Virus record (IMG/VR): IMGVR_UViG_3300014496_000009
Location: 1-20,926 of that record
Origin: a virus
Direction: 5' to 3' (one strand)
DNA: 20,926 bases
A program made the translations under genes and the position numbers. Below the pieces are notes generated by a model that saw only the letters and a program-made list of their open reading frames with translations, was not told where the DNA came from and made no database searches. Numbering within the stretch: position 1 is the first letter of the stretch; each line of letters begins with the position of its first letter. This document shows positions 4,880 to 18,612 of this stretch, piece by piece.

Positions 4880-5251
4880 ATGGATTTTAAAGATAAGCTT
4901 AAGCAATTTAGATTGAAAAGCAATTTAACGCAAGAAGAATTAGCAAAGAAATTAGATGTCACAAGAACACGAATAACCGACACAGAAAGTGGCAGAGTTC
5001 AAGGAAACTTAAAATTTATAACAAATTTATCTAAAATTTCTATGCGCCCATTAGCGTATTGGATTGATGGTACATTTGAGGATGAATATAAACCATATGA
5101 AGCACTTGATGTTCTAGTTGACAATCTGATTGATGCTGGATTAATAGAAGAAAACAAAGATGTTGATGATAATGTTGCTGTTTTATTATTGAATATGTTA
5201 AAAAAAGAAACTAATTTAAAAATAAGAATTAAAAAGGAAATGAAAAAATGA
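4880..5251 (+). CDS. XRE-family phage repressor without a peptidase domain
   Basis: Residues 1-60 are a helix-turn-helix: DFKDKLKQFRLKSNLTQEEL, then AKKLDVTRTRITDTESGRVQ. The remaining 60 residues are an acidic and helical tail (YEALDVLVDNLIDAGLIEEN) and a Lys-rich end. No S24/LexA autocleavage domain is present, so induction would not be by RecA-stimulated self-cleavage of this protein. ATG at 4880 is preferred: AAGGAG at 4863 lies 11 bases upstream, whereas a GTG at 4868 overlaps that site. The stop overlaps the recombinase ATG (ATGA), so the two are made together. Divergence from a Cro-like gene supports the immunity-repressor role. Confidence 0.8.
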   Translation: MDFKDKLKQFRLKSNLTQEELAKKLDVTRTRITDTESGRVQGNLKFITNLSKISMRPLAYWIDGTFEDEYKPYEALDVLVDNLIDAGLIEENKDVDDNVAVLLLNMLKKETNLKIRIKKEMKK

Positions 5252-6723
5252 GAGTAGCAATTTATGTTAGAAAGTCTGTGCATAAAGATGATTCTGTTTC
5301 CTTAGAAACGCAAATAGAAAGTTGTAAAGAATTTTTAAACTTAAAATATAAGGATTATGATTTTGAAGTTTTTGAGGATGATGGAAAAAGTGGTGGCGAT
5401 ATGAACAGACCAGCGTTTATTACAATGATGAAGTTAATAGATATGAAAAAGTTTGATATGTTGATTGTATATAAAACAGATAGGTTCAGCAGAAACACAA
5501 TTGATGGTTTAACTGTCATTAAGCATTTGAGAGAAATAAATGTAGAATATATAAGCACAAAAGAGGATTATGATACGACAACTACGACTGGTTATATGGT
5601 AATAACAATATTATTATCTTTAGGAGAAAAAGAAAGAAGTGATGTTAAGATAAGAGTTAATGATGCAATGTTAACATTAAATACAAAAGGTTGTTGGACT
5701 GGTGGTAAAACACCAGTAGGATTCAATATAATCAAAATAGATGGAAAAACATATTTACAAAATAATCCAGATGAAAATGATTTTGTAATAGATATGTATG
5801 GAATATATGCTAAGTCAGTTTCTCTATACGCAGCACATTATATATTAAAAAATAAATATCCAAAATTAGAATCTGTAAATATAGAAAATCTTAAAACAAG
5901 ACTAAGAAGTGTAATGTATGTAAAATCTTCATACAAAGTTAACAACTTTTTAGGGTTGAACAATTGGCAAGTATTAGGTGAACCTAACGGTAACGGATAT
6001 TTAAAATATACCCCAAAGGGAAAAGAAAAGATTGCTGTAGTAAGTAAACATTCCGGCATTATAGATGAGGATTTATGGATTCAAACACAAATAAGATTAA
6101 TGAATAAAAAGGAAGAACATTTCAGAAGACCATCTAAAACTTATTGGCTATGTGGGATATTAAAATGTCCAATATGTGGAAGTAACGTCAACATAATAAA
6201 CTCAAATAATCACAGATATTATGTATGTAGCAAAAGAGTTAATAGGGGAATAAAAGGTGTCGGAAATTGCACAAATAGTAAATATTTGAAAGCAGAGGAA
6301 ATTGAAAGTAAAGTTAATGAAGCATTGAATAATATAGAATCAAAAGATGATTTTATAAATGAGTTTACAAAACCATCTTTTAAAGATAATAATTATTTAG
6401 TCTTAGAAAAGGAAAATAAGAAAATAGATACTAGAATTAATAATTTAATAAGCCAAATAATGGATATGTCTAACGAATCAGCAGTATTATTTAAAGCTAA
6501 AATAAATGAATTAAGCTATGAAAAACTTACAAATAATATAAAAATAGATGAATTAAAAGCAAAAGAATTAGAATGTACACCTAATTTAGATAAATTATTT
6601 GAATCTTTAAACGGTTTTAAAAAATCACATAATGCTTTAGATAAAAGAAATTGGTTACGAATAATTTTCAAATCAATTACTTATAACCCAGTGACAGACA
6701 CAGTTTCACTAATAATCAATTAG
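5248..6723 (+). CDS. Large serine recombinase (phage integrase)
   Basis: This 491-residue protein would integrate and excise the phage. The catalytic domain holds the nucleophile in YVRKS (Ser10), the FEDDGKSGGDMNRPAF loop, and YKTDRFSRN near residues 75-83. GEKERSD and the start of the long helix follow. The recombinase domain starts near GKTPVGFNI. A zinc ribbon is formed by C307, C310, C327 and C341, followed by a Glu/Lys-rich coiled coil (about 375-450), as in serine integrases. Translation starts by a 4-base overlap with the repressor, so repressor and integrase are made from one message. All catalytic landmarks are present and the frame is intact. A transposon-type recombinase is the alternative; the flanking phage modules favour integrase. 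Confidence 0.93.
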   Translation: MRVAIYVRKSVHKDDSVSLETQIESCKEFLNLKYKDYDFEVFEDDGKSGGDMNRPAFITMMKLIDMKKFDMLIVYKTDRFSRNTIDGLTVIKHLREINVEYISTKEDYDTTTTTGYMVITILLSLGEKERSDVKIRVNDAMLTLNTKGCWTGGKTPVGFNIIKIDGKTYLQNNPDENDFVIDMYGIYAKSVSLYAAHYILKNKYPKLESVNIENLKTRLRSVMYVKSSYKVNNFLGLNNWQVLGEPNGNGYLKYTPKGKEKIAVVSKHSGIIDEDLWIQTQIRLMNKKEEHFRRPSKTYWLCGILKCPICGSNVNIINSNNHRYYVCSKRVNRGIKGVGNCTNSKYLKAEEIESKVNEALNNIESKDDFINEFTKPSFKDNNYLVLEKENKKIDTRINNLISQIMDMSNESAVLFKAKINELSYEKLTNNIKIDELKAKELECTPNLDKLFESLNGFKKSHNALDKRNWLRIIFKSITYNPVTDTVSLIIN

Positions 6724-10100: not shown

Positions 10101-11229
10101 ATTTCTTGGTAAAATCAGCTAATTTTTGATTTTCTTCTGGTATGATAATATTCCTATTTGCGATAATATCATTAGTTGCAGCTTTTTCAATAGGTTTTAA
10201 AATGCCTTTAGGATTTAATAAAGTTGCTTGTGTTGCATTTTCTGGTGCTGCAGTTATATTAGGTTCAATAGGATTTTTCGATTCAATAGGCTTTAAAATA
10301 CCTTTAGGATTCAATATTGTATTAGTTTGAGGATTAAAATTATTTTCTGGAATAGTTGGTTCAGCAATTGGTTCGTTAACTGGAACATTTCTTTTAAGCT
10401 TATTTAGAATATCCCCAGCATAAGGAAGAACAGCTTTTCCAAGAACCCCTAATCCAGCGCCAAATCCAGCGCCTTGAATACCAGCACTAGCAATTTCTTT
10501 TGGAGTTCCACCGGCTTGACCAGCAAGTATTGCATTGCTTGCGCCACCGACAACAGCGCCTTGTCCGATTGCTGGCGCAAAAGTTCTTGCAGAATTTGTT
10601 AATCTATTTAAAATATATTCTTTTCCAGTTGTTGACAATAAATTGTTTTCTGCTGGAATTTTGCTTAATATGAAATTCGATAATTCTTTACCAGTTGTTT
10701 CAGTTTGTGCAAGAGGATTTCCAGCGCCCATTTGTCCAGTTTCAAGCGCAGATAAAATCATAGCTACAGTATCAGCACTTACATTTCCAATTGTTCCTAA
10801 ATCTGGTTTAACAAGTGGTTTTCCTTTTTCATCCACAGCCATACCACCAGAATATTGACCGGCAGCAATTTGTAATCTACTTAAAAATGGTATAACTTTT
10901 GTTTTCTCTATATTAGGTTTAAGATATTTATTAAACCAATTTACAATAGGCACATCACTTTGTGGCGCAGATGTTGCACTTGGCGCATTTATATACGAAG
11001 GTGGAGTATAAACTTTTTTAGTAGCTTGAACAAAAGGAGAAACAAATTTTGCTTGTGTGGCAAAACTTGGTAAATTATAATTAGGCTTTGAAAATAATAT
11101 TGAAGTTTTATTTACAGGTACAGTTGGAGTTAAAGGACTTCTTAAAGGATTGCTTACAAAACTATTAGGTGATACTAGCGTAGGAGTTGACGCTGGTTCT
11201 ATCTTCTTTTTAGGATTAAAATAATTCAA
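7144..11229 (-). CDS. Very large internal virion / DNA-ejection protein with ParB-like domain
   Basis: This 1361-residue protein ends the late operon. The N-terminal 120 residues are Pro/Ser/Thr-rich. A Gly/Ala-rich hydrophobic stretch follows (about 218-274), then two copies of LNPKGILKPIE 32 residues apart (about 305 and 337). Residues about 400-495 look like a ParB/sulfiredoxin-type domain with VVGKDGFVIDGRHRALAAI. A Pro-rich spacer (about 517-580) leads to a long helical part. That part includes LLNPKTLIRNIIGN (about 785), a motif of large polyvalent phage proteins, and a hydrophobic segment (LGFTGLGYLLADKGVI, about 1035). It resembles ejected inner proteins of short-tailed phages in size, position after the hub and fibre, and composition. 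No lytic transglycosylase motif is visible. The start is TTG at 11229 behind AAGGAGG. A tape-measure role is less likely because no tail-tube gene is present. Confidence 0.7.
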   Translation of the reverse strand: MNYFNPKKKIEPASTPTLVSPNSFVSNPLRSPLTPTVPVNKTSILFSKPNYNLPSFATQAKFVSPFVQATKKVYTPPSYINAPSATSAPQSDVPIVNWFNKYLKPNIEKTKVIPFLSRLQIAAGQYSGGMAVDEKGKPLVKPDLGTIGNVSADTVAMILSALETGQMGAGNPLAQTETTGKELSNFILSKIPAENNLLSTTGKEYILNRLTNSARTFAPAIGQGAVVGGASNAILAGQAGGTPKEIASAGIQGAGFGAGLGVLGKAVLPYAGDILNKLKRNVPVNEPIAEPTIPENNFNPQTNTILNPKGILKPIESKNPIEPNITAAPENATQATLLNPKGILKPIEKAATNDIIANRNIIIPEENQKLADFTKKFSNADSFDTKVSKVGYGTTPISEVYGYIDNMSEGSLNPKAVKEELLKGGNSYVKVKINPKILDIQDSESLTVDNKTDINKAIVVGKDGFVIDGRHRALAAIDQNKMIDAFIPSKDFYNYVNENNMNLANERASLGSEQLPVNVPPEVANVPPEIAPTTPETLNNPLAPPTAEVPPPPIETPLKATENQPPEPPAEVVLPAKKFQFGNGKSRFANVTVPNSTNTEAELKKQLEDLKLGYTKETNANSLKAANARIEKSVEDAVSFVNDKTKTSAEKTVTAIQLINKFQKEGNFARAVDIASSISSQLTKNGQAIQAASIYDRLSPEGILVYAQKLIDKVNNQRWFKGLTKIQKLNPDLAKQLADLAKNVQDLTGDAKIEASQILQATLQSLGKSNIFRKLETTQTIAQLLNPKTLIRNIIGNELFYRVERVNKYIATPIDIARSFFTKSDRTVTFKTGNQGEYWKSFLTGAKAGWRNVNPAGLQTQYDLAPQAFTNKWNPMTYLEKALGWNLRGFDYAAYKRAANQTLGEMGELSAINSGLKGEARKVAVQTFIKSADKNILEIADQYGKYVTFQDNNILGQSLSAIKRALNLYKEFGFGSLVLKYPKTPAALILRGIDYSPAGFLSSAYKLTAPLFEEGGKINIRDFELSLSRAITGTLGFTGLGYLLADKGVITGQTSTDADLREAQTEAGGGSYKVNVTALQRWAKSGFNQNALKAQDNDTLVSYDWAQPIAMSLAFGANMNQSIKEKKSISEDLTSSLGTAAESGLSSIADQPVLQGLTKLIQSKSPAAAFGNVAQSLPSSFTPTLLNQFRQLNSNVARSTYNPNPLKTGLNIAQNKIPFLANKLPQNYGVLGQKKEVYQNGTNNLFNVFLNPSFVTKNNPTPVQKELLRLNATTGSTTQFPRVIPSKLTWTQKGKTYTHVLTETEKPLYQKEVGRLTNNGITSILKRNISDDDKVNLIVKILNQASVISKGEFLNYLKKKS

Positions 11230-11244
11230 TTAAATCAACCTCCT

Positions 11245-12117
11245 TTAAAAGTTAACACCAGATAATGAATCAGCAGCAGTTGTTTTTTCTTTCGCTGGCG
11301 CTAAATCGTTTTGAATACCATATACCCAAGAGTTTGCTGCTGTAGGTGTCATTCCAGCATTTAATAAAGAACTCATAATTGATTGTTTATTGCTACTTAA
11401 ATATGCAGCAGCTTTTGCATTAGTATTAAAACCATAAACAGCTTTTATTATTGCATTTGCAGTATCATTAATATTACTTGATTTAGAACCAGAAGAACCA
11501 CCGGAGGAACCTCCAGAACTTCTACTTGCCGAAGCTGCCCTTGCTGCACTAGCTGCTGCATCTGCCCTTTGCGTATTGAAATTAGCTTGTGCCTGTGCTG
11601 CTGCTTTCTGCTGTGCATCATAAGCACGATTAGCATTTTCCTGTGCTATCATAGCAGCATTATAGTTTTGCTGTGCTGTAATTAGTGATTGCATAGTCGC
11701 AGCATTAATATTTGCATTAGATGAAGCAACACCAGAATTATAACCAGTATTAACATCAGAAACTTGTTTTGCATTTTCTGCATTAGCAGTTGCCTCACTT
11801 GTAGCAAGATTGCCTAAACTTCCTTGCTTCATTGCATTATTTGTTATATTTGCTTGTGCTAAACTTCCAGAATTACCAACAGCATTGTTTTGACCTCTTT
11901 GTGCCATAAATTCAGCAAAATTCCTTGCTGCTTGCTGGTTAGAAGTATCAACTTGCGACCTTGATTTTAAATAAGCTGGTTCAATTGCTTTTTGCGCTGT
12001 GGATAATGTGTCTAAGCTTTTATTTCTAGCAGTTAATAAGCCTAAATTTGCAGCAGCTTTATTCGCTGTGTTTAATTGGTTTATTTGTGCTGTAGGATTA
12101 TAAACAGCAGTTGCCAT
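11245..12117 (-). CDS. Ala/Gln/Asn-rich internal virion (ejection-type) protein
   Basis: The 290-residue protein is almost all helix and coiled coil up to about residue 195, dominated by Ala, Gln, Asn and Ser (AAAQAQANFNTQRADAAASA). A Ser/Gly linker follows (SSGGSSGGSSGSKSS). The C-terminal 75 residues form a compact helical domain (NKQSIMSSLLNAGMTPTAAN) that may bind DNA or a partner. It has almost no Cys or Trp. Composition and place directly before the giant terminal protein fit the small ejection proteins of short-tailed phages (T7 gp14 or P22 gp7 class), but no sequence motif proves it. ATG at 12117 follows AAGGAGG; a 15-base gap separates it from the 1361-residue gene. Confidence 0.6.
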   Translation of the reverse strand: MATAVYNPTAQINQLNTANKAAANLGLLTARNKSLDTLSTAQKAIEPAYLKSRSQVDTSNQQAARNFAEFMAQRGQNNAVGNSGSLAQANITNNAMKQGSLGNLATSEATANAENAKQVSDVNTGYNSGVASSNANINAATMQSLITAQQNYNAAMIAQENANRAYDAQQKAAAQAQANFNTQRADAAASAARAASASRSSGGSSGGSSGSKSSNINDTANAIIKAVYGFNTNAKAAAYLSSNKQSIMSSLLNAGMTPTAANSWVYGIQNDLAPAKEKTTAADSLSGVNF

Positions 12118-12130
12118 TTTTCATACCTCC

Positions 12131-12901
12131 TTAATATCCGATTGAGAAATACGTAAATGCTTTATTATTAGTATCCGTTGCACCACCAGTAAAACCAAAT
12201 ATACATGTTGTTTTAGTTGATGTGGTTGTACTATGCCACATTAAAACATTGTTATTTTGGTTTACATTAGCGATTAAACAAGCATTAGGAAATGCTTTTG
12301 GGAAAATCACACTACCATAGCTATACCAATAAGTCAGAACTTGCGTTTCAGCATTAGTAGTTCCAGAACCCCATTGTAATATTAACCCATTTGCCAATTG
12401 TTTCCATCCGGTTCCAGCTGTCCAATCAGTTTTCTTAAAAGTTGTTGCATCAATAGTTGTAATTTCTGATTGATTTAAAGCAATTGCAGCATTAGACAAA
12501 ACTAAATCTGTTTGAAGCGCTTTTGCTGTATCAGTTACATCAATAGTATCAAGTCTATCTGATAAACTTGTATAAGTTCTAGCATCTGCACCAGTGTGCG
12601 TATTCGCAACTTCTGCATTTACATTTGCAATAGCGATTGCATCAATTCTCAATTTAACACTTTCTAATACATCTTGGACATTAGTACCACTTAAAGTGGG
12701 GATGCCAACAACACTAATAACGCTTGCAGCAAGTGCATCAATTTCAACAGTTAAAGTATCATTTATATAAGTTTTAATTGCATTACCAGATTCATCAAAT
12801 TTTGTCTTTACCTCAGTTGGAGTTAAACCAGTTACATCATTAGGTTCATCAGCCAAAGTCTGGATTATATCTAAGTCTGTGGTTAATTTAGTTACACTCA
12901 T
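12131..12901 (-). CDS. Tail fibre protein with gp53-like C-terminal receptor-binding domain
   Basis: The N-terminus (LADEPNDVTGLTPTEVKTKF, then DESGNAIKTYIN) is a common anchor in Firmicute phage tail fibres. The middle (about 60-150) is a repetitive trimeric-fibre-like stretch rich in Ile, Thr, Ala and Asp. The C-terminal 100 residues, from GWKQLANGLILQWGSG through VIFPKAFPNACLIANVNQ to the last FSIGY, match the gp53-like tail fibre tip that binds the host surface. ATG overlaps the stop of the 1024-residue gene by 4 bases. The ribosome site GGGGGTAAAG lies inside that gene. The role is adsorption; the receptor is unknown. Confidence 0.8.
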   Translation of the reverse strand: MSVTKLTTDLDIIQTLADEPNDVTGLTPTEVKTKFDESGNAIKTYINDTLTVEIDALAASVISVVGIPTLSGTNVQDVLESVKLRIDAIAIANVNAEVANTHTGADARTYTSLSDRLDTIDVTDTAKALQTDLVLSNAAIALNQSEITTIDATTFKKTDWTAGTGWKQLANGLILQWGSGTTNAETQVLTYWYSYGSVIFPKAFPNACLIANVNQNNNVLMWHSTTTSTKTTCIFGFTGGATDTNNKAFTYFSIGY

Positions 12902-15900
12902 TGAACTTTACCCCCTAATCTTGCTAACATATTTATACTTAATATAGTTACAGTTGTATCAGTATCTAATTTTTCAACAACAAATTTAAAATATACAAAT
13001 TGCTGTGCTGTAAGTTCAAGTGCATAAGGTTGTGGGTTATATGAAGTTCTAAAACTAAAATGTGCAAAATCTAAATGTGTGAAAGTAATAACATTAAATT
13101 CCACTATTTGACTATCACTTACACCATCATTATTAGTGATATATTTTATTGTCAGATAAGACCTATAATTAGGATTTATGGAAATCCAAGCTTTATTCAT
13201 AAACTTCAATCTCCAATCAGCGCCAAAATCATAAAATGCCATTGTCCAGTTAATGTTCATAGCAGTGTTATTATCGCTTCTCAAATTCTCATTAAATCTA
13301 TAAATTGAACCTTCTGCACCGTAATACATTTGACCATCAACAACTAAAAAGTAACTTGCTGTTATATTGTCGAATTTATACCAAGTATCATTGAAATAAT
13401 TGTGAACCCATACGATTGAACCAATACACAGCCAATATTCTTTCTGTTCTTGCCAATTGTATGTTATCGCTTTTGTTAAATCTACAGTATTTAAGCTTTG
13501 CTGTACTCTTTGACTTATTAATTTAGAATTAGTCTGGTCACGCACAGTTGAATTTTGCCAAGCATAAACACCATTATTTATGGTATAAGGAACATCAGCA
13601 ACAACTTGGACTTGCCCAAATGCCATATTCCCAATATTTTCATTTAATTCAAAAACTGGGAAAGAAACAATAACATTTCCAATTACATCAGTTGTGCTTG
13701 AATAATAAGAATACATAGCACCACCACCAAGTTCAAAGAAAATCTTCTGTCTATCTAATTGCTTGATAATATCTGTAATTGCATATTCTCCTGTTCCTAA
13801 ATCATCATAGCTATTACTCTCAAAATATTCAGCCGAAGGAACTCCATTTGCTAAGCCACTCCAAAACCTTCTGTTTTTAAAGTTTGTATTTCCCCAAAGG
13901 AAAACTCTTGAATCAGTTTGTCCAGAATAATCCATTTCGTACAAACAATTTTCTATTAATGTTCTTTGTCCTGTTCCTTTTGTCCATCCAATATCAACAT
14001 TTGAAGGCGTACCGGTTACTGGAATAACGACAAAATGAATTTTCCCTAAAGTTAAATCCACCGTATAATCGGTAGTCAAAGTTAGCGTAATTCCATTCTT
14101 TTTAACATAGTCTATTGAAGTTACTGCTTGTTCTAAAATGTAGAAATCAGCACTTGTTCCATTAGGCGAAAATGTTTCGTGTTTACTTCCTGTTAAAATA
14201 TTTAATTCTTCAAATATTCTGCCAAGACCATCACCAGTAACAGTTCCAGTTCCACCAGCCGGAGGAACACCAACAGCAAGCAAGGGAACATAACCAGCTA
14301 CGGTTTTAACTGTGCTTCCATCATATACAAGGTATTCAGTACCAGTTAATATATATAAATTACTTCCAAATTGAAACATTTTAGTTGCACCGTTGTGCAT
14401 ACCAGTTCTTTTTACAGTTATTATTTCACCAAAATTTCCGGTAACATTAGCATAACAAGTTATAGATGAAGAAATACTTCCAGCAACAATTGCTGGTGTC
14501 GCAGTTGCAGCAGTTGACAAATTGCCTGTTTCCCAAAAATCGACAACAGCTACTTGGAATGAATATGAAGTACCATTTGTTAAACCAGTTGCAGTAAATG
14601 TTGTTGTTGTAGCTGCTATATAACTTAGGTAAACACCATCTTTATATATAAAATATGATTGCTTATCTGTATCTGGTGAAGCTGTCCAATGAAGTATAAT
14701 TTGAGTATCTCCAACAGTAGCAGTTAATCCGGTTACTTGTGAAGGTTTTAATATTGTATATAAATCACCTTCAAGAACATCTAAATCTATATTGGTGGAA
14801 TTAACCCCCCATTCTGCGCCATGACTTCCAGATGATTGGTATTGCCAATTTGTCCATTTATTGTTTGCGAAAATTCCAAATGCCATAAAACCAGATGAAG
14901 GATAACTTGTGGAATAACAAGCAAGCATTAGAGGACATTTTGCGCCTATGCCACCTTTTGTCGAATGGTATAATTCTTGTGGTTCAACAGTTAAATTATC
15001 AACACAATAAAATGCTGTATACAAAATACATTGTCTTTTAGATAATTGTTTAAATTTTCCAAGAAAAGCTTCAATAAAATCAAAAGCTTGGTCATTCGTC
15101 ATTGCTGGATAAATACTGCCATTTGCATTTTCAAAATCAAACATAGGCATAATATCACCAATATCGTTAGCACTTCCGGTTACAGCCACTATATAATTAT
15201 AAAAAGTTGTTGCTTGTGTTTCTGCATTAGCAACCGAACTTAACCATCCATTCGTTGAATCATAATAATTAGGACAATTAAACCATGTAAAACCAATTTT
15301 TAAACCAGCTGCCCTTGCTGCTGTAACGTGTCCGATTGTATTCGTTGTGTCTGCTGCCATTCCAGCATATTTCATCAGCATCATTCCACCGACTTTTTCT
15401 GGCTTTTCACCAGCTTGCGCTGTGTTGTATAAAGTGGTGTAAGTAACATCATCTGTGGAATATTCTATCTTTACATTATGGAAAGTTCTTCCATCTGCAT
15501 AATACATTTGTAAAATTAAATATGGAATAGTTCTTGTTGCTGTAAATTGGCATTTTATCCATTGAGTTCCACTTCCAACAACGACATAAGTAGATAAAAC
15601 TCCATCAATAAAATTGCTTAATGGATTATAGTCTGGCGCCTTGCTTGCTGTTACTGTACTTGTTAAAGCTGCATCAACATAACTACCAGAACCAGAATCA
15701 TAGTAATAAGCTTCAAGTTCGTTAAACACAGAAGAAACATTTGTCGTGCTACCATTTGCAGTAATCTTGATATATTTAGCGCTAATGCTTACAGAATATT
15801 GACCACCAGCCTTCATATGCACATAATCACCTTTAGTTTTCATTGTTGTCCAATTGATAGGTGGTGTATCAGAAGGTTCATTGTATTGATAATGTGAAAT

Positions 15901-15972
15901 ATCACAACCTTTTACAAGTGGTATTCTTCCAGTTGCATCATAGTATTGGAAATAACCAGCAGTTTGTGCCAT
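12898..15972 (-). CDS. Fusion protein: GH25 lysozyme interrupted by a discoidin domain, FN3, and tail-hub C-terminal region
   Basis: The 1024 residues hold four parts. (1) A GH25 muramidase: strand 1 GCDISHYQ with D24, and YVHMKAGG near 50-57. The fold resumes with VTAARAAGLKIGFTWF (about 217-232) and the catalytic D-x-E in MPMFDFEN (D279, E281). It ends with WQYQSSG and a late Asp in IDLDV (D396/D398). (2) Inserted between strands, residues about 58-195, an F5/8C-discoidin-like carbohydrate-binding domain (YIKITANGS, FNELEAYYY, DGRTFHNVKIEYSTDD). (3) An FN3 domain, about 410-495 (LTATVGDTQIILHWTASPD). (4) About 500-1024, a beta-rich region with YILTGTEYLVYDG, GYVPLLAVGVPPAGG, ELNILTGSKHETFS and SRVFLWGN, typical of large phage tail-hub proteins. 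The short gene at 16365-16646 looks like the missing N-terminus of part 4. It is probably a virion-bound cell-wall hydrolase used at infection. ATG follows GGAGG. Confidence 0.85.
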   Translation of the reverse strand: MAQTAGYFQYYDATGRIPLVKGCDISHYQYNEPSDTPPINWTTMKTKGDYVHMKAGGQYSVSISAKYIKITANGSTTNVSSVFNELEAYYYDSGSGSYVDAALTSTVTASKAPDYNPLSNFIDGVLSTYVVVGSGTQWIKCQFTATRTIPYLILQMYYADGRTFHNVKIEYSTDDVTYTTLYNTAQAGEKPEKVGGMMLMKYAGMAADTTNTIGHVTAARAAGLKIGFTWFNCPNYYDSTNGWLSSVANAETQATTFYNYIVAVTGSANDIGDIMPMFDFENANGSIYPAMTNDQAFDFIEAFLGKFKQLSKRQCILYTAFYCVDNLTVEPQELYHSTKGGIGAKCPLMLACYSTSYPSSGFMAFGIFANNKWTNWQYQSSGSHGAEWGVNSTNIDLDVLEGDLYTILKPSQVTGLTATVGDTQIILHWTASPDTDKQSYFIYKDGVYLSYIAATTTTFTATGLTNGTSYSFQVAVVDFWETGNLSTAATATPAIVAGSISSSITCYANVTGNFGEIITVKRTGMHNGATKMFQFGSNLYILTGTEYLVYDGSTVKTVAGYVPLLAVGVPPAGGTGTVTGDGLGRIFEELNILTGSKHETFSPNGTSADFYILEQAVTSIDYVKKNGITLTLTTDYTVDLTLGKIHFVVIPVTGTPSNVDIGWTKGTGQRTLIENCLYEMDYSGQTDSRVFLWGNTNFKNRRFWSGLANGVPSAEYFESNSYDDLGTGEYAITDIIKQLDRQKIFFELGGGAMYSYYSSTTDVIGNVIVSFPVFELNENIGNMAFGQVQVVADVPYTINNGVYAWQNSTVRDQTNSKLISQRVQQSLNTVDLTKAITYNWQEQKEYWLCIGSIVWVHNYFNDTWYKFDNITASYFLVVDGQMYYGAEGSIYRFNENLRSDNNTAMNINWTMAFYDFGADWRLKFMNKAWISINPNYRSYLTIKYITNNDGVSDSQIVEFNVITFTHLDFAHFSFRTSYNPQPYALELTAQQFVYFKFVVEKLDTDTTVTILSINMLARLGGKVQ

Positions 15973-15984
15973 AAAAATTACCTC

Positions 15985-16365
15985 CTAAACAAGAGTAATA
16001 ATGATATTTCCAACAGGAACAGAAACGGAATCTCCAAGAATCAAGTTTCTGTGTGTTGAAAGTTCACCAAAATATAATAAATTGCCAACAGTAAGTGCAT
16101 CCATTACACCAAAATATGAAATATTTCCCCAAATGCCCGTAGATACGGGGAAATTTATAACTAAAGCATTGCTTGTTACCCCAAGTGTTGGCGCTATAAA
16201 AGTAATTGCTTTTCTTACATAGCTTCCACCAGAAACTTCACTTCCACCGGTATTAGGGTTACCAGTAAATAAGGCTATATAAATTGGTGTAACACTTGTA
16301 TAAGCTACATTTCTCATAGAAGCATTAACCAAAGCGTTTTTCAAATAGGTACTAAAACCAGCCAT
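15985..16365 (-). CDS. Gp80-like phage structural protein
   Basis: The 126-residue product starts MAGFSTYLKNALVNASMRN and has YIALFTGNPNTGGSEVSGGS, YVRKAITF, FPVSTGIWGNISYFGVMDA and NLLYFGEL. This is the pattern of a widespread small phage protein family often named Gp80 or minor tail/fibre protein. It is predicted to be all beta. ATG overlaps the stop of the preceding gene (TAATG). It lies between the two pieces of the apparent tail hub, so it probably arrived with, or was trapped by, the lysozyme insertion. The family is recognised from memory of its conserved phrases; exact virion position is unknown. Confidence 0.75.
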   Translation of the reverse strand: MAGFSTYLKNALVNASMRNVAYTSVTPIYIALFTGNPNTGGSEVSGGSYVRKAITFIAPTLGVTSNALVINFPVSTGIWGNISYFGVMDALTVGNLLYFGELSTHRNLILGDSVSVPVGNIIITLV

Positions 16366-16646
16366 TAAATTTCACTTCCTTCAAATTCATATAAATTTCC
16401 ACCATGTGCAACCATCATTTTCCCTTTATACATAATCATTCCGTTTATGGTTCCAGAAGGAAAATTTAATATTTTTGCATATCCTTCTCTTTGTTTTAAT
16501 TTGAAAGTTTGAGTTGTTCTTAAATTAAACATTTCGCTTGCTTCACCTAACTTCAAATTTAAAGCACCATCAACATCTTCATTAAGTCCTAGAAATACAC
16601 TTATCTTAACAGGATTTAATTCTTTTGGAACTTGAATAACTGCCAT
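16365..16646 (-). CDS. N-terminal fragment of a tail-hub protein
   Basis: The 93-residue product carries VKISVFLGLNEDVDGALNLK, then LGEASEMFNLRTTQTFKLKQ, then REGYAKIL, and ends within a beta-propeller-like repeat (MVAHGGNLYEFEGSEI). These phrases are the usual beginning of a single large phage hub protein of roughly 600 residues. Its expected continuation (FGSNLYILTGTEYLVYDG, GYVPLLAVG) is found in the C-terminal half of the 1024-residue protein 1.9 kb downstream. It thus looks like one half of a split gene. ATG at 16646, after GAGGGGTGG and overlapping the previous stop (TAATG), is preferred to a GTG at 16655. Confidence 0.7.
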   Translation of the reverse strand: MAVIQVPKELNPVKISVFLGLNEDVDGALNLKLGEASEMFNLRTTQTFKLKQREGYAKILNFPSGTINGMIMYKGKMMVAHGGNLYEFEGSEI

Positions 16647-17557
16647 TAATCCCACCCCTCACATACATCTTCAATAGATTCAATTGGCGAAGGTTGCCTT
16701 TTATTCGCTTGCTGCTTTCCTTCCATAAACATCTGATTGAAAAATGAAGCACTTGCAGCATCTTCAAGTAAAACTAATTGAGATGCAAGATAATAAGTTA
16801 ATGTTGTCATACAAGTTGTATCATCCATCTGCATTTTCTGTGTCATTAAAGTTATTGGAATTGATACTGGTGTATAGACAATCTTTTCTGTTCCTTCAAA
16901 TTCCCAAGAAACAAACAATCTGTTTGTGCCTTGAAATTTAAACATACTATCCTTTTGGTAAGGTTGAACTGGTGAAGAAGTAACAATCTGGTTGATACTC
17001 TCAAAATCATCCGGCATTACATATTCAATCCATTCCCTATAAATTGGTACTTGTGAAGGCAAAAAAGGTTCTGCGAATAAAGCAACTTTTAAAATCTGGT
17101 AATAAGTATTACCACCAAATGTAATTCGTGTTTGTGTTGCTGTAGGACTAGATACTAAAGTTCCATAATAAGCAGTTGTTTTAATTATTCCTATAATTGG
17201 TATAGTTAGAAGTACATTCCATGTTCCATCTAATTCTTCAATTACAATTGTAGAATCACAATCAATATCAAAATAATAAGAATGTGCTACTTTATCAGTT
17301 GTGTAAGTTTTATCAGTTGATAAATGTTCATCTATAATACTTAGTCTATCGCCTAATAAATTTACATATTTCCTGTGGTTAAATTCATAAAAAGAATAAA
17401 CATTTCCATCACGCGTTAGAATATTCTGACCTATTGTCAAAATTGCTGGTGTTCTTGCTAAATATCTTGCTGTTTTAGTAGCATCAATTAATCCGACATT
17501 ATTCCTTTTATCCATTAAATCCATAGCAGAATTAAATATATCTTGCGCTGTTACCAA
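16646..17557 (-). CDS. Head-to-tail connector-like (adaptor) protein
   Basis: The 303-residue protein starts TAQDIFNSAMDLMDKRNNVG, a helical start typical of phage head-tail adaptor proteins. A beta-rich middle follows (about 45-165), then YREWIEYVMPDDFESINQIV and a C-terminal helical part (CMTTLTYYLASQLVLLEDAA). It ends in a flexible tail with CEGWD. It sits directly before the tail hub, where short-tailed phages keep their connector genes. Start is TTG at 17557, 7 bases behind GGAGGTG; no ATG is available nearby. An intrinsic terminator ends only a few bases before its ribosome site. The connector role is inferred from layout and position, not from a catalytic motif. Confidence 0.55.
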   Translation of the reverse strand: MVTAQDIFNSAMDLMDKRNNVGLIDATKTARYLARTPAILTIGQNILTRDGNVYSFYEFNHRKYVNLLGDRLSIIDEHLSTDKTYTTDKVAHSYYFDIDCDSTIVIEELDGTWNVLLTIPIIGIIKTTAYYGTLVSSPTATQTRITFGGNTYYQILKVALFAEPFLPSQVPIYREWIEYVMPDDFESINQIVTSSPVQPYQKDSMFKFQGTNRLFVSWEFEGTEKIVYTPVSIPITLMTQKMQMDDTTCMTTLTYYLASQLVLLEDAASASFFNQMFMEGKQQANKRQPSPIESIEDVCEGWD

Positions 17558-17572
17558 AATTTACACCTCCAT

Positions 17573-17599
17573 AAAAAAGAACTCACCTAAATGAGTTCT
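17573..17599 (-). terminator. Intrinsic terminator inside the late operon, before the connector gene
   Basis: On the minus strand AGAACTCA (17599-17592), a 6-base loop, and TGAGTTCT (17585-17578) are followed by a run of T to 17573. The stem overlaps the stop codon of the LamG gene. The T-run leads straight into ATGGAGGTG, the ribosome site of the connector gene. Confidence 0.8.
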
Positions 17600-18275
17600 A
17601 TGAATTATTTCTACTTGCACTATAATTTTGTAAAACTTCTGTTGCTGTTAATGCCCTATTATATATCCTAGTTAAATATATAATTCCACCAAATTGTCTA
17701 TTTAGTGCAGTGTTATTCCCAAGCGTAACATCATAAGCATTAGTTACTAAAGTTCCTGTATAAGCTGCGTGATTGTCCAAAACTCCATTAACATATATAT
17801 TCGCATTTGTTCCATCTGTGGTTACGACATAATGCGTTGGTGTATTCAGAGTTAAAGTATTTGCAGATTGAACTACAGCTACACCAGCAACATAAAATGT
17901 TAAATATTTAGTTGCTAAGATAAAGAAAGAATAAGGAGTAGTTCCAGTTGTAGTTTCTTTATCTATTATTCTTCCAGATGTAGAAGGTGTACCAGCAATA
18001 GATATTACACATTCAGTTGATATATAACTTGAATTGAAGCTTGTAGCATGACCACAATTAATTATGTCGTTCACTCCATCAAATTGTATACCGTTTGCTG
18101 TCGTTCCACCACTTGCAGCAGTATTCGCAAAGTTTGAACATGTTCCATTATTAGCAAGTCCACTTCTATCTCTTATAGTTGTTGGCGCTAAAGAATTATC
18201 AAAATCGTGTCCATCAAGCCATAAAACTAGACCATCTTTTACAACTTCTGGAGAAAGTAATTTTGCGTTAAACAT
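17598..18275 (-). CDS. LamG / concanavalin A-like lectin-domain virion protein
   Basis: After a short N-terminal arm (MFNAKLLSPEVVKDG) the protein is a single LamG-type jelly roll: LVLWLDGHDFDNS, IRDRSGLANNGTC, GIQFDGVNDIINCG, STECVISIAG, GRIIDKE. It closes with THYVVTTDGTNANIYVNGVL and IYLTRIYNRALTATEVLQNY, a very typical end of the family. It probably binds carbohydrate on the host or helps capsid adhesion. It lies among head genes, so a surface decoration is more likely than a tail fibre (inference). ATG is one base after the stop of the preceding gene, behind GGGAG. Confidence 0.85.
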   Translation of the reverse strand: MFNAKLLSPEVVKDGLVLWLDGHDFDNSLAPTTIRDRSGLANNGTCSNFANTAASGGTTANGIQFDGVNDIINCGHATSFNSSYISTECVISIAGTPSTSGRIIDKETTTGTTPYSFFILATKYLTFYVAGVAVVQSANTLTLNTPTHYVVTTDGTNANIYVNGVLDNHAAYTGTLVTNAYDVTLGNNTALNRQFGGIIYLTRIYNRALTATEVLQNYSASRNNS

Positions 18276-18276
18276 T

Positions 18277-18612
18277 TTACCAACTCCCTGTCCAAGTGCC
18301 TTGATAACTTATTCCAGCATCACAAGACACCAAATAAATATAGTATACTTTTCCTAAACTCATAGATGGTGTTACTCCATCTTTCCAAGTTATTTTACTA
18401 TCAAAAGTTAATGTAGCTACTATCTTCATGTTAAATCTTAACGAAATTTCTGTATCTAAAGAACCAGCATTTGTTAAAGAAATAGTTTTAGCATTTGCAT
18501 CAGTATTCGCAATTTTAAATTTCATGTTATGAAGTGTTACTGGCAATGTGTATACATTTGCAGCGCTACATTCTAAATTAACCAGATTATTATTAGGTAC
18601 TGAATTTCTCAT
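18277..18612 (-). CDS. Small beta-rich virion protein (111 aa)
   Basis: I do not recognise a named family. The protein is predicted to be mostly beta strands. It has a long central segment (FKIANTDANAKTISLTNA, LRFNMKIVATLTFDSKI, TWKDG) and a C-terminal end YYIYLVSCDAGISYQGTW that resembles ends of phage head-associated beta-sandwich proteins. ATG follows AAGGAGG. It is part of a tight row of small structural genes behind the capsid gene, so a capsid or neck component is likely. Confidence 0.6.
   Translation of the reverse strand: MRNSVPNNNLVNLECSAANVYTLPVTLHNMKFKIANTDANAKTISLTNAGSLDTEISLRFNMKIVATLTFDSKITWKDGVTPSMSLGKVYYIYLVSCDAGISYQGTWTGSW

Follow-up and report, generated by a model that had tools for sequence, protein, structure and literature searches.

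How a podophage comes to carry its tail hub in two genes, with other coding sequence lying between them, is the question raised by the IMG/VR virus record IMGVR_UViG_3300014496_000009. The whole stretch analyzed, a virus contig of 20,926 bases, is called the window here, and coordinates refer to it unless another locus is named. Its podophage tail region sits on the minus strand and contains, in gene order, a probable adaptor, a gene of 93 amino acids (aa), a Gp80-like gene, a gene of 1024 aa, a tail fibre gene with a Gp53-like end, and then genes of 290 and 1361 aa. An earlier note, made from the letters of this DNA, had read the 93-aa and 1024-aa proteins as the halves of one hub split by insertion of a virion lysozyme. 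The open reading frames lie where it placed them and all hub phrases quoted from them are present. The present analysis confirms the two-gene hub, the protein of the tail's central channel, but its break site is a recurrent one at which several cargoes occur, the lysozyme being just one of them. The earlier interpretation is partly supported.

A hub profile was built from 38 intact podophage hubs of the P22 gp10/T7 gp12 nozzle family. The 93-aa protein (16365-16646), hereafter the N-chain, covers profile positions 1-93 with an E-value of 2.5e-21 (63 bits), and residues 519-1023 (12904-14418) of the 1024-aa protein (12898-15972), hereafter the C-chain, cover positions 99-594 with an E-value of 1e-166 (543 bits). 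Joined for scoring only, the two pieces give one alignment over positions 1-594 at 613 bits, which is nearly additive. They tile the profile without overlap, and together they show whole-length homology to the hub family, so the hub assignment of both is well beyond chance. A hub is usually, though not by strict definition, a single polypeptide; here the pieces are separate genes with separate starts. By BLAST, the C-chain from about residue 515 matches Bacillus Pagevirus hubs with 30% identity (1e-45), and the 93-aa protein matches the start of the same Pagevirus gene weakly (E 0.08). A first viral scan with the 93-aa protein alone, by an exact-peptide method of limited reach, returned nothing. 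Split hubs escape genome annotation, as the N-chain has no match in a Pfam search and matches only marginally the starts of phrog_578 (head closure Hc3) and phrog_3287 (virion structural protein).

A total of 137 loci with a hub match were collected from scans of viral contigs and bacterial genomes and from reference loci. Uninterrupted relatives, which the earlier note had proposed to look for, are plentiful, with plain single-gene hubs at 95 of these loci. The nearest ones (L008, L010-L012 and L014) are about 55% identical to the hub part of the C-chain and consist of one gene of 585-609 aa, with about 100 residues ahead of the region shared with the C-chain. No homologue of the short protein without a C-chain partner was found among the loci scanned. 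The split itself is repeated in other metagenomes. The 39-kb contig L007 shows the identical order of adaptor, 93-aa protein, Gp80 and GH25-discoidin-FN3-hub protein, and the independent contig L006 shows the same order over the part covered. Compared with the window, the N-chain of L007 is 60% identical, and the C-chain hub regions of L007 and L006 are 63% and 73% identical, respectively. The ratio of nonsynonymous to synonymous substitution rates (dN/dS) between the window and L007 is about 0.22 for the N-chain (dN 0.275, dS 1.27), similar to 0.16-0.25 for the C-chain hub region, although dS is near saturation and the direction alone is reliable. The N-chain is under purifying selection in this lineage. 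Because independent contigs repeat the split and the N-chain is under such selection, the split is neither an assembly error nor debris.

Splits at the same site were found with other contents. Prophage L030, found identically in a bacterial genome assembly, has an N-chain of 108 aa, Gp80, and a C-chain of 556 aa whose extra part comes to just about 60 residues and contains no lysozyme. In L170, L171/L195 (Peribacillus saganii) and L197 (Bacillus sp. NTK034), an N-chain of 120-124 aa is followed by a tail-type protein of 657-679 aa, bearing a polysaccharide deacetylase domain in L170, and a C-chain of 504-506 aa. L186 and L190 have an N-chain, a 132-aa protein and a C-chain of 570 aa. Some irregularities were seen at these loci. 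In L186 (about 1230-1512), and likewise in L190, the N-chain frame is open over the expected length and contains no ATG, GTG or TTG before mid-gene. In two split prophages an additional gene of unknown family separates the tail protein from the C-chain: a 442-aa, apparently membrane protein in L197 (4570-5898), and a 215-aa opposite-strand gene in L195 (5274-5921).

Every split breaks at about hub position 92-101, with the C-chain alignment of L195 starting at 89. On an unrooted tree made from 48 hub C-halves, the split label needs five changes; the well-supported branches force five, and the bootstrap trees give five to six. The same hub hairpin was broken independently in about five tree-separated lineages with differing cargo. 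Five breaks within about 8 of 595 positions have a chance of about 3e-8 under uniform breakage, a rough figure with breaks in loops being favoured. Two single-chain hubs carry inserts at the same place: 350 aa at 97|98 in L065, part of it tail-fibre-like (phrog_6782), and a smaller insert at 91|99 in L189. Searching genomes of the family, order and class to which L197 belongs added no split lineage to those already known.

Two general causes were considered and rejected. Lysozyme insertion is ruled out by L030, which is split without a lysozyme, and the proposal that the hub was split by a lysozyme fails on the other lineages, where the same site is broken by Gp80 (L030), a large tail protein (L170, L195, L197) or the 132-aa protein (L186/L190). 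Gp80 fares no better as a general cause; in L170, L195, L197 and L186 the two pieces are not separated by Gp80, and in L199 Gp80 lies upstream of a hub that is intact. When the lysozyme arrived in the order of events is unreadable from the window lineage.

The AlphaFold2 model of the intact hub of L010 has a predicted local distance difference test (pLDDT) score of 90 and a predicted template modelling score of 0.86. Its top PDB matches are the podophage nozzles and hubs of Pa223, A4, SU10, Pan3 and VP1, P22 gp10 and T7 gp12. The window C-chain also matches these PDB podophage hubs and nozzles, in keeping with a hub fold that includes a beta-propeller. On the L010 model the break falls in the turn that joins strand 88-92 to strand 99-104. 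Loop length at this turn differs naturally among intact hubs, 14 of the 38 rows having up to 9 additional residues. Judging from the sequence pattern, the flanking strands would be strands three and four of the first propeller blade, with strand four on the outside. In the C-chain modelled without its partner, most of the hub is confident (block pLDDT mostly 75-93), and the first strand after the break, residues 519-524, is unformed (pLDDT blocks of about 33-62), as expected if this strand needs the N-chain. In the T7 nozzle, the strand that closes the propeller comes from another part of the same chain, and blade 3 sends a loop into another domain (PMC6702177). Given this arrangement in T7, a propeller taking a strand from a second chain is plausible.

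The hub break site resembles a port at the rim of the propeller that has taken insertions repeatedly. We give about even chances to the broader view that the hairpin of the last two strands of blade 1 is a general port for host-interaction modules (lysozyme, deacetylase, collar or fibre proteins), used repeatedly, either inside one chain or with the hub as two self-assembling chains, and with cargo swapped without rebuilding the tail. If a single fixed position of the hub tolerates a break without loss of function, it would offer a natural site for attaching enzymes and receptor binders, and also a testable model of how tail parts are exchanged among phages.

The first 500 residues of the C-chain contain GH25, F5/8C (discoidin) and FN3 domains. 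The F5/8C and FN3 domains match in a search with the full C-chain, and GH25 matches when the first 511 residues are searched alone. The earlier note had named these three domains, and Pfam matches place them, together with the Gp80-like gene, between the hub halves as it said; one refinement to its domain order is that the discoidin domain lies inside GH25 and not after it. The first part of GH25 (residues about 18-58, GCDISHYQ..., 15799-15921) is conserved in L006 and L007, and its boundary is taken from the missing GH25 profile positions. The nested discoidin domain (residues about 60-190, 15403-15795) matches PF00754 over residues 107-186 (E 1.3e-7), its outer boundaries being estimated. 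The second part of GH25 (residues about 195-405, 14758-15390; PF01183, E 6.9e-8) is above the family cut-off and bears the catalytic DxE motif, D279/E281, kept in all three members (window, L006 and L007). FN3 follows at residues 411-477 (14542-14742; PF00041, E 3.3e-6), and by eye a linker at residues about 495-517 (AGSISSSITCYANVTGNF, 14422-14490) leads to the hub region. GH25 could be aligned, DxE motif included, with the spore cortex-lytic enzyme SleM (PDB 5jip, E 2.9e-13). A cell-wall enzyme fused to the second chain, as proposed earlier, is therefore borne out as a predicted GH25 muramidase; that it is active and displayed we infer. Other copies of the GH25-discoidin arm were found only in L006 and L007 among viral contigs, and none in cultured phages.

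The Gp80-like protein (126 aa, 15985-16365) belongs to the podophage GP4 fibre I family. Residues 3-124 match positions 1-128 of the PF23140 profile (E 1.4e-36), a match to the whole domain, and PDB 8jou chain a is matched with an E-value of 1.1e-17. In GP4-type contigs, 'ASITGTATVTA'-like short-repeat proteins lie beyond Gp80 and the hub comes later. By eye, and unscored, the window linker and the start of the L030 C-chain resemble the short beta repeats of proteins after Gp80 in L087, L104 and L149. This suggests that a cassette of Gp80 plus repeats may have entered the hub gene in two lineages. A passage of the DEV study (PMC10925440) cites the GP4 collar as standing on the adaptor in a 15:12 ratio.

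The window phage is probably temperate because a serine recombinase gene is present (PF00239 resolvase, 5248-6723). We consider it likely that this temperate podophage builds a P22 gp10/T7 gp12-like hub from two chains, with a cassette at the blade-1 hairpin, re-association of the chains, and display of the C-chain arm. A tail-decoration gene cassette would lie within the hub gene at the hairpin of strands 3 and 4 in the first propeller blade. The N-chain would contribute the N-terminal strands together with strands one to three of blade 1, and the C-chain the outermost strand of this blade and the rest of the hub. Made from neighbouring and partly translation-coupled genes, the chains would most likely re-associate in tail assembly by pairing neighbouring beta strands across the break. 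Each hub subunit, of which there are probably six in a virion, may bear the GH25-discoidin-FN3 arm projecting at its rim, where the arm may adjoin the Gp80 collar and help to bind and cut a Gram-positive cell wall on entry. Against this proposal stands the low confidence of GH25 in the AlphaFold model of the window C-chain, which used a three-sequence alignment and told little about the enzyme arm. Gp80 is a tail-fibre component in GP4 and would be a putative neighbour of the split site.

The mostly confident hub fold predicted for the C-chain alone would also suit an N-chain that is left over or otherwise employed, with the C-chain by itself as the working hub. We think this quite unlikely. 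All five lineages retain the N-chain, which stops at one and the same profile position and corresponds to strands found in intact hubs; in the window lineage it also evolves under purifying selection. The C-chain model fails to form the very strand meant to pair with the N-chain (residues 519-524). The hub might instead be split yet not permanently armed, if the lysozyme arm is cut off or released. There is a linker between FN3 and the hub, and phage structural proteins are known in general to undergo proteolytic processing; but all three members conserve the in-frame fusion of arm and hub, and no processing site turned up in the C-chain, where no search aimed at one was made. Release of the arm therefore seems unlikely, but worth keeping in mind.

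On an unrooted tree, gain and loss are undecidable by parsimony alone, which leaves room for an ancestral two-gene hub with intact hubs as later fusions. Split hubs are nevertheless scattered tips among intact relatives that need five changes, and cargo that differs by lineage fits separate insertions better than repeated precise removals, making an ancestral split very improbable. The window is a metagenomic virus contig, and such contigs may be chimeric or carry frameshift artefacts. This explanation is negligible here, with the same order in independent metagenomes (L007, and L006 in part), analogous splits in bacterial genomes (L195, L197 and the copy of L030), and split genes that have their own starts. 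Rejoining of the hub parts through an intron, an intein or recoding, known in so far as introns interrupt some phage genes, is scarcely credible either: no Rfam match up to E 1 was found within 11000-18500, the Pfam search gave no intein family, and the interior between the hub pieces holds an entire gene together with a fused enzyme, conserved at the protein level.

Upstream of the N-chain lies a probable head-to-tail adaptor in the position of P22 gp4/T7 gp11 (303 aa, TTG start, 16646-17557). The assignment is based on its location directly upstream of the hub and on an N-terminus that by eye resembles the gene abutting intact hubs, as in L010 (4778-5686). A family search gave no strong match, the best being phrog_394 tail protein (E 0.064). 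The adaptor stop overlaps the N-chain start (TAATG), an ATG at 16646; starting from a GTG 9 bases further upstream would lengthen the N-chain to 96 aa. The ATG of the Gp80-like gene overlaps the N-chain stop (TTTAATG), and the C-chain has its own strong ribosome-binding site (aggaggt). The next gene downstream (12131-12901) encodes the tail fibre with a Gp53-like C-terminal domain (PF21882, E 5.4e-12). Among close relatives the probable adaptor ranges from about 125 to 306 aa (window; L010; L015, 5284-5676; L169, 1801-2178), and the variation looks like an inserted domain of about 170 residues. A comparable lectin-domain insertion is described in DEV gp83 (PMC10925440). Further upstream are a lectin-like (Laminin_G_3) protein (17598-18275) and a 111-aa protein (18277-18612), an order kept in L007 (2121-2798 and 1784-2119).

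Other hub anomalies were also seen. Two non-sister lineages break at the identical 14-mer AGACCACGGTTATA: L055 (about 3643), L058 (about 5879) and L059 (about 2969); and L060, L061 and L066 (about 5843). The upstream frame stops right after it and a +1 shift continues the hub (RPGY), while the sisters L046 and L080 read AGA CCA GGN TAT without the extra base. The codon CGG is nearly unused in contigs carrying this break, and a programmed +1 frameshift at AGACCACGGTTATA is possible from the sequence. In L054 (7086-7160) and L057 (4350-4424), the hub is broken near profile 455-484 with nothing inserted, which looks like a frameshift. The single-chain hubs of L185, L202, L210 and L222 (677-696 aa) match profile positions of about 169-238 twice, an apparent internal duplication.

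No earlier description of a split podophage hub was found in the literature searched, which excludes most subscription journals. SleM, the nearest solved GH25, shares the DxE-bearing domain, and the window GH25 differs from SleM-type lysozymes in its nested discoidin domain and its fusion to a tail hub. The Gp80 of podophage GP4 (PF23140, PDB 8jou) is matched over the whole length of the window protein. In GP4-type contigs Gp80 comes after the probable adaptor, as in the window, but before an intact hub gene, whereas in the window it lies inside the hub gene. Pagevirus hubs (Pascal gp14 and Page gp15, 594 aa) are about 30% identical over the C-half and resemble the window N-terminus weakly by BLAST but clearly by profile; they are intact, with tail-spike genes upstream of the hub gene and not inside it. 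Profile and fold matches join the window hub to the podophage hub/nozzle family (P22 gp10, T7 gp12, Pa223, SU10, GP4 8jov; 'tubeB' of Hardies), with which it shares the position after the adaptor and the beta-propeller build described for the T7 nozzle (PMC6702177). The known podophage hubs are single-chain, whereas the window hub gene is broken in the apparent blade 1, with other coding sequence in between.
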